From: Bacteroidaceae bacterium
Lineage (GTDB): Bacteria; Bacteroidota; Bacteroidia; Bacteroidales; Bacteroidaceae
Assembly (NCBI GenBank): GCA_017503065.1
Contig: JAFVTT010000028.1
Coordinates: forward strand, 1 to 64,000
Direction: 5' to 3'
DNA: 64,000 bases
Below, one piece after another: positions 51,588 through 55,404 of this stretch. Made by a program: the position numbers and the translations under genes. Under the pieces are notes generated by a model that saw only the letters and a list, made by a program, of their open reading frames with translations, had not been told where the DNA came from and made no database searches. Numbering within the stretch: the stretch's first letter is position 1; every line of letters starts with the position of its first letter.

Positions 51588-52322
51588 ATGAAAGAAGTCC
51601 GTTTTTTCTATACTCCTGTCATTTCCGGTTCTTTGCCGGAAGACGAGGCAAAGCATGCGGTACGTGTGCTACGAATGAAGGAGGGTGATGAGATAAACCT
51701 GATGGATGGAAAAGGCACTTTCTACAGGGCAGAAATTACCACGGCATCCAACCACCATTGCCTGTACAGGATTATAGAAGAGGAAAAACAGGAACGTGCA
51801 TGGAGTGGCAGCATACATTTGGCCGTGGCACCCACCAAACTAAACGAACGGATAGAATGGCTTGTGGAAAAAGCCACAGAAATAGGGTGGGATAGGGTAT
51901 CATTCCTGAATTGCCAGTTTTCAGAACGTAGAAACATCAAGACAGAAAGAGTAGAGAAGATTGTGGTGTCCGCAGCAAAACAGTCCCATAAGGCATGGAT
52001 GCCAGATGTTGATGAAATGCAGACATTCAAAGACTTTGTAAAGCAATGGGGACTTCAAGAAGGAAACGTACAAGACGGAGTCCAGCGCTTTATCTGTCAT
52101 TGCAATGAAGGAAAGAAACCACACTTGAAGGATATGCTGAAGAATGGACAGGATTGTATTGTAATGATTGGGCCTGAGGGTGACTTTTCAACTGAAGAGG
52201 TAAAGTTTGCAGAAAAATATGGTTTTCAAAGCGTGTCCTTGGGTACAAGCAGGTTGCGCACAGAAACGGCTGCTTTAGTAGCCGTTCATCTGATGCAACT
52301 TAGTCAGGCAATTGCTGATTGA
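51588..52322 (+). CDS. rsmE: 16S rRNA m3U1498 methyltransferase RsmE
   Basis: This protein of 244 residues has an N-terminal PUA-like domain (HAVRVLRMKEGDEINLMDG) and a C-terminal SPOUT knot with IGPEGDFSTEEV and LGTSRLRTETAA. It methylates U1498 in the decoding centre of 16S rRNA. The start is 11 bases after the transporter stop, so these genes share a transcript. Confidence 0.95.
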   Translation: MKEVRFFYTPVISGSLPEDEAKHAVRVLRMKEGDEINLMDGKGTFYRAEITTASNHHCLYRIIEEEKQERAWSGSIHLAVAPTKLNERIEWLVEKATEIGWDRVSFLNCQFSERRNIKTERVEKIVVSAAKQSHKAWMPDVDEMQTFKDFVKQWGLQEGNVQDGVQRFICHCNEGKKPHLKDMLKNGQDCIVMIGPEGDFSTEEVKFAEKYGFQSVSLGTSRLRTETAALVAVHLMQLSQAIAD

Positions 52323-52397: not shown

Positions 52398-54671
52398 ATG
52401 GATTCTCTTATCAAATTGTATACATCATATGCAGGTTGCGAGCCAACGTTATGTGAGAAAATTGCAGGAGGCGGCAGCAACCGTGAATACTATAGGATAA
52501 CGGATAGCACTGGGGGTACCGTGATAGGTGCCGTTGGAACATCCCATGAAGAGAATGATACCTTTATATATTTAGCCAAGCACTTTGCAAAGATGGGGTT
52601 GCCAGTACCGCAGATATTAGCGGTAAGTGAAGACAGGATGGTTTACCTTCAAAGTGATTTGGGCAGTACAACACTTTACGATGCACTCAAGAAAGGACGT
52701 GAAAACTCCGAGGGATACGGTACCAATGATGTAGCACTGTTAGAACAGGCAATAAGGTTATTGCCACAAATACAGGTTTGCGGTGCAAAGGGACTCGATT
52801 TCAAACAATGTTATCCACAAGAGGCAATGGACGAACAGAATGTGATGTTCGACTTGAATTACTTTAAGTATTGCTTCCTGAAGACCACGGGAATCGATTT
52901 CAATGAGGTAAAGTTGGAAGATTCGTTTATAGAATTGGCCCATAATTTGGGGAAAGAGAGCAAACCTTATTTCCTATATAGGGATTTCCAGGCAAGAAAC
53001 TTGATGCTTGACAAGAACGGAACCCTTCATTTCATCGATTTCCAAGGGGGTAGGAGAGGTCCTTTGCAATACGATCTGGTTTCATTCCTCTGGCAGGCAT
53101 CTTCACACTTCAATGCAGATTTGAAACAGCATTTGATTGACGAATACATAATTGCGCTTAAAGAACACGAGGACATTGATGAAGGTGCCTTCAGAAGAAG
53201 CATACCGCAATGGGTGCTATTCCGTACACTTCAGGTTCTGGGCGCTTATGGTTTCAGAGGAAAGTATGAACAGAAGAAATATTTCCTGGACAGTATCCCA
53301 GCGGCTATAGATAATCTTCGGGAAGTCCTTGCCGAAGAAAGTTCTTGTCCCTATCCATACATGTATGACGTATTGAAAAGATTGGTTTCTTTGCCAGAAT
53401 TCACATGCATAAATGAGAAGAAAAAGATGCTCCCGTCAACTTCAGTTCATGACAATAAAGGGCAACTTAAAGTAAGGGTATTCAGTTTCTCGTATAAAAA
53501 AGGTATTCCCGAAGACAAGTCGGGAAACGGTGGTGGATATGTTTTCGATTGCCGGGCCACACACAATCCCGGCAGATATGAACCGTATAAGAAACTAACA
53601 GGTCTCGACCAACCGGTAATTGATTTTTTGGAGAATGCCGGTGAAATCATCACCTTCCTTAATAATATATATAGGTTGGCCGATGCTCACGTAGAGAGAT
53701 ATATGGAGCGAGGTTTTACTTCCTTGATGTTCTCTTTCGGGTGTACTGGAGGACAACATAGAAGTGTATACAGTGCTGAACATTTGGCCGATCATATCAA
53801 TGAGAAATATGGAATAGAGGTATCAGTGATTCATCGTGAACAAGGTATTGAAAGGATTATGCCAGCGAGAAGAAAGGCCATGATTTTTGCCGCCGGACTT
53901 GGCACGCGTTTGAAACCATTAACTGACACAAGACCTAAGGCTCTTGTAGAGATTGCAGGCAAACCGCTTATTGAGCACGTATTATATAAACTTGTTTCTG
54001 CCGGTTTCAACGACATAGTTGTCAATGTCCATCATTTTGCCGATATGATAGAAGAATGGGGACGGAAAATCGTTAATGAACCTTATTATAAGGATAAAAA
54101 CATTAGAATTACATTTTCCGACGAACGCGACGAACTTCTTGAAACAGGCGGTGGCATATTACATGCGTCGTCGTTATTGACGTGTAACAATCCAGAACAC
54201 AAGTTCTTGGTGCATAACGTTGATATTTTGTCTAATCTGTGTCTTGAAGAACTTTGGGCGCATTCAAGCGAATCTTCAGATGCGGTACTTGTCGTCTCAA
54301 AACGTAAGACCGCCAGATACCTGATATTCGACGATAATATGAAACTCGTTGGCTGGACAAACATTCAAACTGGCGAAGTCAAAACTCCGTTCAATGAAGT
54401 CCATGAAACTATAGCCAAACTGCAACCAAATGAGCTTGACATAGAAAAATACCATCTAAGAGCATTTGCAGGAATACATTATATAAAGACAAAACTGATT
54501 GATTTCATGCATTCTTGGCCAAGCAAATTCAGTATCATAGATTTCTATTTAAAGAACTGTGACTGCCATGAAATCAAGGGTTATACACTTGAAGATTTAA
54601 AACTGATAGATGTCGGAAAACTCCACACATTAGAAGACGCAAATAACTTTGCCACCATTTTACAAGAATAG
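52398..54671 (+). CDS. Three-domain fusion: sugar kinase (AmgK-like), RapZ C-terminal domain, nucleotidyltransferase (MurU-like)
   Basis: This protein of 757 residues has three parts. Residues about 1-330 form an APH-type kinase (catalytic YRDFQARNLML near residue 195, then IDFQGG) resembling AmgK. Residues about 355-485 form a RapZ C-terminal domain (GGYVFDCRATHNPG, LTGLDQPVIDFL and CTGGQHRSVYSAE near residue 448). Residues about 490-757 form a nucleotidyltransferase (AAGLGTRLKPLTDTRPKAL, ETGGGILHA) resembling MurU. AmgK and MurU make MurNAc-1-phosphate and UDP-MurNAc in peptidoglycan recycling. In E. coli, RapZ senses glucosamine-6-phosphate. The middle domain may therefore regulate the two enzymes. 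Confidence 0.87.
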   Translation: MDSLIKLYTSYAGCEPTLCEKIAGGGSNREYYRITDSTGGTVIGAVGTSHEENDTFIYLAKHFAKMGLPVPQILAVSEDRMVYLQSDLGSTTLYDALKKGRENSEGYGTNDVALLEQAIRLLPQIQVCGAKGLDFKQCYPQEAMDEQNVMFDLNYFKYCFLKTTGIDFNEVKLEDSFIELAHNLGKESKPYFLYRDFQARNLMLDKNGTLHFIDFQGGRRGPLQYDLVSFLWQASSHFNADLKQHLIDEYIIALKEHEDIDEGAFRRSIPQWVLFRTLQVLGAYGFRGKYEQKKYFLDSIPAAIDNLREVLAEESSCPYPYMYDVLKRLVSLPEFTCINEKKKMLPSTSVHDNKGQLKVRVFSFSYKKGIPEDKSGNGGGYVFDCRATHNPGRYEPYKKLTGLDQPVIDFLENAGEIITFLNNIYRLADAHVERYMERGFTSLMFSFGCTGGQHRSVYSAEHLADHINEKYGIEVSVIHREQGIERIMPARRKAMIFAAGLGTRLKPLTDTRPKALVEIAGKPLIEHVLYKLVSAGFNDIVVNVHHFADMIEEWGRKIVNEPYYKDKNIRITFSDERDELLETGGGILHASSLLTCNNPEHKFLVHNVDILSNLCLEELWAHSSESSDAVLVVSKRKTARYLIFDDNMKLVGWTNIQTGEVKTPFNEVHETIAKLQPNELDIEKYHLRAFAGIHYIKTKLIDFMHSWPSKFSIIDFYLKNCDCHEIKGYTLEDLKLIDVGKLHTLEDANNFATILQE

Positions 54672-54759: not shown

Positions 54760-55404
54760 TTATTCTTGTTGTAGCATTCCGTTAATATCTCCAATGTATT
54801 GCAGGAGTTCTTCGCGTCCCATTCGATTTTCGCTACTAGTAACAAAATATGGTGGCAGTTCCTCCCATTGTCTGGATAGTTCCTTGAGATAATGCTGGAC
54901 ATTGCCGCCAAGACGCCCCTTGCTGACTTTGTCTGCCTTAGTGAAGACTATTGCAAATGGAACACCGTTCTCGCCAAGCCACTCAATAAATTCAAGGTCT
55001 ATCTTTTGGGGTTCATGGCGCACGTCAATAAGCAGGAAAAGCAATGTCATCTGCTCACGTTCAAGGATATACGAACTTATCATACGCTCGAATTCTTCCT
55101 GTGCCTTTTTCCCACGCTTTGCATAACCATATCCTGGCAGATCAACCAGATACCACGGTCTGTCTGCAAGAGCAGAAGGCGTCTTGCCATCAATGGTCTT
55201 ATTGATGATAAAATGATTGATAAGTATGGTCTTGCCTGGTGTGGCAGATGTTTTGGCTAACTTACCATTGTCAGCAAGCATGTTTATAAGCGAACTCTTT
55301 CCAACATTGCTTCTGCCTATAAAAGCATATTCAGGCATTTTCTCCTGGGGACACTGGTCAACACGGGCACTGGAAATGAGGTACTCAGCGGTTTTTATAG
55401 TCAT
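54760..55404 (-). CDS. engB: Ribosome biogenesis GTPase EngB (YihA/YsxC)
   Basis: This protein of 214 residues has GTPase motifs GRSNVGKSS (G1), DLPGYGYAK (G3) and FTKADK (G4). It helps 50S subunit assembly. The gene ends 88 bases from the convergent fusion gene and begins six bases after the DUF3078 protein gene ends on the same strand. Confidence 0.96.

Follow-up and report, generated by a model that had tools for sequence, protein, structure and literature searches.

A Bacteroidaceae protein uniting AmgK-like kinase, RapZ C-terminal and MurU-like nucleotidyltransferase domains, and the association of the RapZ domain with probable muramic-acid salvage in Bacteroidota

The DNA analysed here (the window) is a 64,000-nucleotide stretch of contig JAFVTT010000028.1 from a Bacteroidaceae bacterium (assembly GCA_017503065.1), and the gene in question is a single open reading frame (ORF) at 52398..54671 on its forward strand that encodes, in one chain, an AmgK-like kinase, the C-terminal domain of RapZ (RapZ-C) and a MurU-like nucleotidyltransferase. 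The broader novelty lies in RapZ-C being a stable third partner of this kinase and transferase in Bacteroidota, at times as a free-standing protein, which links the domain to muramic-acid salvage of the AmgK/MurU kind in this phylum. An initial annotation, made from the sequence alone, had assigned the outer domains to AmgK and MurU and proposed that the middle domain senses glucosamine-6-phosphate (GlcN6P) and controls both activities. That interpretation is partly supported overall, its AmgK/MurU reading being well supported and its sensor reading plausible. Our best explanation of the whole, a muramic-acid salvage protein with an amino-sugar-phosphate-sensing RapZ-C, is offered tentatively.

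From ATG to stop the ORF encodes 757 residues, and the three parts described by the initial annotation were confirmed by Pfam families over their gathering scores: APH (residues 20-250, 50.5 bits), the RapZ C-terminal domain PF22740 (residues 357-482, 113.6 bits against a gathering score of 27, profile positions 1-120 of 121) and NTP_transferase (residues 493-632, 54.5 bits). The RapZ-like part had been placed at residues 355-485, and the three motifs quoted from the protein were all found in it. Matches in the Pfam scan were limited to APH, PapZ_C, NTP_transferase and NTP_transf_3. The kinase part occupies residues 1-335 (52398..53402), a linker residues 336-356 (53403..53465), RapZ-C residues 357-482 (53466..53843) and the transferase residues 490-757 (53865..54668), all on the forward strand. 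An AlphaFold model of the protein has a mean predicted local distance difference test score (pLDDT) of 88.3, falling below 50 at linker residues 337-351, and a predicted template modelling score of 0.54; the single domains are modelled confidently, but their relative placement is not. The triple fusion is genuine and no assembly artefact, because the same three domains recur in every one of the 120 homologues listed (673-812 aa, from 8000 scored), a list that favours fused forms since the query itself is fused, and because 20 of 38 related loci carry them in a single ORF. A Bacteroidaceae metagenome-assembled genome labelled roe deer colon holds the nearest relative, at 97% identity.

Those 38 loci, taken from genome contigs, answer the question raised by the initial annotation as to whether the fusion exists elsewhere in Bacteroidales: besides the 20 triple fusions, 12 carry a kinase-RapZ-C protein with a transferase gene, and 6 carry three separate genes with the transferase gene convergent. 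The prevalence of the triple form does not extend to a phylum-wide sample of 247 Bacteroidota genomes, for which completeness was not given, so that absences may include missing contigs. RapZ-C was found in 27 of these, and its surroundings comprised only 1 triple fusion; the commonest arrangement was a kinase-RapZ-C protein with an adjacent transferase gene (16/27), followed by 5 kinase-RapZ-C proteins with no transferase gene in the surrounding 1.5 kb or so, 4 clusters in which the three parts are separate adjacent genes (the free RapZ-C measuring 133-135 aa), and 1 RapZ-C alone. A matching transferase is located elsewhere in the genome for all 6 genomes lacking one nearby (E 3e-57 to 1e-102), as is a kinase for the lone RapZ-C, and thus all 27 RapZ-C genomes hold both kinase and transferase. 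On a 94-row tree no fewer than 3 changes are needed for the triple form and 8 for all three forms, indicating that the parts were fused or separated repeatedly. Within one family sample RapZ-C occurs in 349 of 399 genomes; the best 30 loci there include 15 with kinase-RapZ-C and transferase, 13 without a transferase in the short locus and 2 with separate genes. Beyond the triad a conserved operon partner was rejected as a candidate, as any one neighbour recurred in at most 5 of 20 loci (clustering by BLAST at E 1e-8 and 60% coverage).

The kinase part has the APH fold (Pfam, fold comparison and alignment) with Asp196 and Asn201, which are invariant in 14 kinases and lie in the loop YRDFQARN (residues 194-201, 52977..53000), whose residues we take to be catalytic as in the APH family. 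The transferase part combines a minimal sugar nucleotidyltransferase fold with a GxGxRLxPLTxxxPK nucleotide-binding signature, AAGLGTRLKPLTDTRPK (residues 498-514, 53889..53939), and with LETGGG (residues 581-586, 54138..54155), a motif common to MurU structures. NVD (residues 607-609, 54216..54224) and DVG (residues 738-740, 54609..54617) are candidate metal ligands; across 13 transferases the Asn and Asp of the former and the Asp and Gly of the latter are invariant. Among NCBIfam models, AmgK is the best of its kind for the kinase part (56 and 31 bits) and MurU for the transferase part (110 and 107 bits). These scores are far under the equivalog cut-offs (550 and 500, 370 and 250 bits, respectively), and the outer parts are therefore AmgK-like and MurU-like rather than certified equivalogs.

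In phmmer searches against solved structures the top match of the transferase was LicC (1jyk, 53.9 bits), with MurU at 51.9 and mannose-1-phosphate guanylyltransferase at 51.3 bits. Together with the acceptance of GlcNAc by AmgK, this ranking would suit outer domains that activate a compound other than N-acetylmuramic acid (MurNAc), e.g. choline in the manner of LicA/LicC, heptose, mannose or GlcNAc. We consider such a substrate very unlikely. The LicC alignment spans just 80 residues, while that of MurU spans 122-140 and includes LETGGG; MurU is also the best NCBIfam match and is among the best fold matches, with the highest identity. The choline reading was accordingly rejected, MurU being ahead on length, motif, family and fold. 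Genome patterns likewise speak against another substrate. The kinase was found in 66 of 70 genomes without MurQ versus 12 of 177 with it, where presence was set at E <= 1e-50, a threshold chosen here (171 genomes pass the curated cut-off). Additionally, at L093:3106-7710 and in L094-L097 a kinase, a MurU-like transferase, a NamZ exo-muramidase and a sodium:solute symporter stand in one gene row from which RapZ-C is absent. This row resembles an operon for the uptake and salvage of MurNAc; the L093 transferase carries a hexapeptide tail, and neither AnmK nor a strong MurQ was found in the genomes concerned. An AmgK/MurU-like function of the outer domains, as first annotated, is thus well supported by family, fold, these NamZ-symporter rows of RapZ-C-less pairs and MurQ complementarity. 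From homology, fold and genome patterns, it is probable that the protein carries out two reactions: the N-terminal kinase would phosphorylate C1 of MurNAc, and probably of GlcNAc as well, and the C-terminal transferase would couple what the kinase makes to UMP. The resulting UDP-MurNAc would be obtained without MurA/MurB.

RapZ-C contains a phosphate loop, CTGGQHRS (C-X5-R-S, residues 449-456, 53742..53765), located between a strand and a helix. According to PMC5737377, an anion in E. coli RapZ rests on this loop, bound by Thr248, Gly249, His252, Arg253 and His190, and E. coli RapZ-C dimerises. PMC7073468 states that E. coli RapZ binds GlcN6P, terms the putative site highly conserved among homologues, and describes the RNA-binding part of RapZ as confined to Enterobacteriaceae. 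The equivalents of Thr248, Gly249, His252 and Arg253 are retained in the window protein. Rows of the pocket alignment were picked by the pattern CTGG-HR, which would make loop invariance there circular, so invariance was taken from other alignments: the loop, Cys included, is invariant in 38 RapZ-C rows that were not motif-selected. In 30 motif-selected rows, E. coli included, Asp384, Arg386, Asn390, Pro391 and His479 are invariant. The P-loop kinase-like N-terminal domain of RapZ was not detected in the window protein by the Pfam scan, and the full-length RapZ model aligns solely at model positions 150-277; membership among RNase adapters was rejected on the absence of that domain.

By analogy with E. 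coli RapZ, the CTGGQHRS loop may bind the phosphate of an amino-sugar phosphate, and RapZ-C, as a stable partner, may tune salvage to the supply of cell-wall sugars. We hold sensing as the main role of RapZ-C to be possible, short of probable. Several observations weigh against this explanation of the protein, salvage reactions and sensing together. The ligand residue His190 is Gly in all 29 Bacteroidota rows, which were selected by the loop motif, and beside that position lies a glycine-rich stretch, KSGNGGG (residues 374-380, 53517..53537), the first five residues of which correspond to a gap in E. coli RapZ. The GlcN6P pocket first proposed therefore keeps its loop residues but not His190, and the ligand may not be GlcN6P; owing to these alterations it probably differs somewhat from the E. 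coli RapZ ligand, and a MurNAc-type 6-phosphate is our guess. Free-standing RapZ-C genes ill fit a purely covalent control domain. A RapZ-C protein of 133-135 aa next to free kinase and transferase genes is explained by a separate partner or a third enzyme no less well than by the putative control of both activities within one chain that the initial annotation had. To these are added the missed NCBIfam cut-offs, a human GMPPA/GMPPB chain that, at 21% identity, has a Z as high as that of MurU, and a plant mannose-1-phosphate guanylyltransferase scoring nearly as high as MurU in phmmer. No further recycling gene was recognised beside the window gene. In genomes of the window's clade AnmK was found in 0 of 38, and MurQ is often absent (over cut-off in 14/38, or 16/38 at E 1e-50).

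Alternatively, with a probability that we rate below that of sensing, RapZ-C could give the pathway a third enzyme activity, that of a cysteine-dependent phosphatase of MurNAc-6-phosphate, so that phosphatase, kinase and uridylyltransferase would take MurNAc-6-phosphate to UDP-MurNAc in one chain or gene cluster. AnmK makes MurNAc-6-phosphate, and in Pseudomonas the phosphatase job is done by MupP, a HAD enzyme. The form, position and invariant Cys of the C-X5-R-S loop, with the anion resting on it in E. coli RapZ, are consistent with such an enzyme, as is the occurrence of free RapZ-C beside free kinase and transferase genes. RapZ-C is present in 8 of the 8 AnmK-positive, MurQ-negative genomes among the 247 (Fisher p 3e-9 among AnmK-positive genomes, kinship ignored); 7 of the 8 are in the tree, at 3 or 4 places, where G022 groups with G017, G100 and G215 with weak support. 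Among kinase genomes RapZ-C accompanies 18 of 18 with AnmK (G221 through a weak AnmK match, E 1e-10) versus 9 of 60 without, and 8 of those 9 have a PF01869 kinase over cut-off. PF01869 proteins from four of the eight were compared with solved structures. Those of G121 and G129 best match a MurNAc/GlcNAc kinase (113 and 125 bits), that of G235 scores 369.6 bits with Tannerella forsythia MurK (8ow9) and 371.9 with 1zxo, a functionally uncharacterised Bacteroides protein, and that of G193 best matches a hexokinase. In G010, G100 and G215 the locus lies on a contig that makes up nearly the whole genome. Xanthomonas HpaP, which is cited alongside YvcJ as though it were homologous to RapZ, is credited in papers citing it with ATPase and phosphatase activity. 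However, 50 of the 51 RapZ-C-less kinases score as a single divergent class, and the AnmK/RapZ-C statistics therefore rest on few independent events. PF01869 is also over cut-off in 14 of the 51 RapZ-C-less kinase genomes, with stronger scores, although we take these proteins for another subtype. No PTP fold or other cysteine phosphatase is among the fold matches listed for RapZ-C, which leaves such a fold possible. The window's clade keeps the loop despite its lack of AnmK, its frequent lack of MurQ and PF01869 over cut-off in just 3 of 38 genomes; a phosphatase-only role was disfavoured on the AnmK and PF01869 counts. It is on balance doubtful that RapZ-C belongs to, or evolved from, a new cysteine-dependent class of phosphatase for sugar 6-phosphates, acting in Bacteroidota on MurNAc-6-phosphate. 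If true, one chain would convert MurNAc-6-phosphate to UDP-MurNAc by three consecutive reactions, and RapZ, the GlcN6P sensor of E. coli, would have started out as an enzyme and later become a sensor. RapZ-C might instead be a mere dimerisation or assembly module that joins kinase and transferase so that MurNAc-1-phosphate is handed on, its pocket being a relic. The dimerisation of E. coli RapZ-C and the repeated fusion and separation of the parts agree with this, but a relic would be expected to drift, and the loop and the five further invariant residues have not, which makes a module of this kind improbable.

We know of no enzyme assigned to the MurNAc-6-phosphate phosphatase step in Bacteroidota, for which RapZ-C is offered as a candidate, and to our knowledge the RapZ C-terminal domain has been known only as an RNA-adapter and sensor part. 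The window protein is a naturally occurring single-chain system in which the ligand or function of the RapZ-C pocket could be studied. As in Pseudomonas AmgK/MurU, it has an APH-type kinase and a minimal sugar nucleotidyltransferase with the MurU signature motifs. In Pseudomonas, however, AmgK and MurU are two separate proteins without RapZ-C, and the window parts score far under the equivalog cut-offs. Unlike E. coli RapZ, its RapZ-C lacks the P-loop N-terminal domain, has Gly for His190 and a glycine-rich insert, and is fused to sugar enzymes. MupP would act at the same step as RapZ-C under the phosphatase reading, yet no HAD model matched the window protein in the Pfam scan (MupP is described as a HAD enzyme in PMC5371407). 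AmgK/MurU of T. forsythia, another member of Bacteroidales, belong to the same phylum and pathway as the window protein. Part of the fusion may already be known from that species, which may have a fused AmgK/MurU form. The published T. forsythia K1058 primer sequence was not found in the 399 genomes of the family of G235, which includes the window's nearest relative (G002) and was thus an unsuitable place to seek it. In PMC7670621, T. forsythia, without MurA/MurB, is assigned AmgK and MurU; in a preprint (PMC13041923), an E. coli strain given the AmgK and MurU of T. forsythia serves as a positive control for MurNAc-probe labelling. In open-licence literature no paper was found that treats AmgK, MurU and RapZ jointly or RapZ-C or a RapZ homologue in Bacteroidetes, and no description of the fusion.

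The window gene is flanked upstream by a same-strand rsmE-like gene ending at 52322 and on its other side by a YsxC-like GTPase gene at 54760-55404 on the opposite strand, both named by reading their sequences. Further arrangements of the triad were noted elsewhere. In G185, RapZ-C, kinase and transferase are on three different contigs (L075, L092, L112), and at L091:6090-7801 (G014) a triad-type kinase adjoins a transferase without RapZ-C in a genome with no AnmK, strong MurQ or PF01869 match. In six loci (L032-L036, L038) each part of the triad has its own gene and the three genes overlap, the convergent transferase gene sharing 26-29 bases with that of RapZ-C. A further, distant triple fusion, 44-62% identical by domain, occurs in G549 (L165:2298-4472, reverse strand), where it lies inside an open frame of 1019 codons and the kinase part begins at codon 295. 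Free RapZ-C proteins of about 135 aa (P0122-P0241), the named ones mostly from Chryseobacterium and Kaistella, carry database names such as RNase adapter RapZ, ATP-binding protein, UPF0042 nucleotide-binding protein and RapZ C-terminal domain-containing protein. PF22740 is the sole domain listed for them, which suggests that those called RNase adapter or ATP-binding protein are misnamed.
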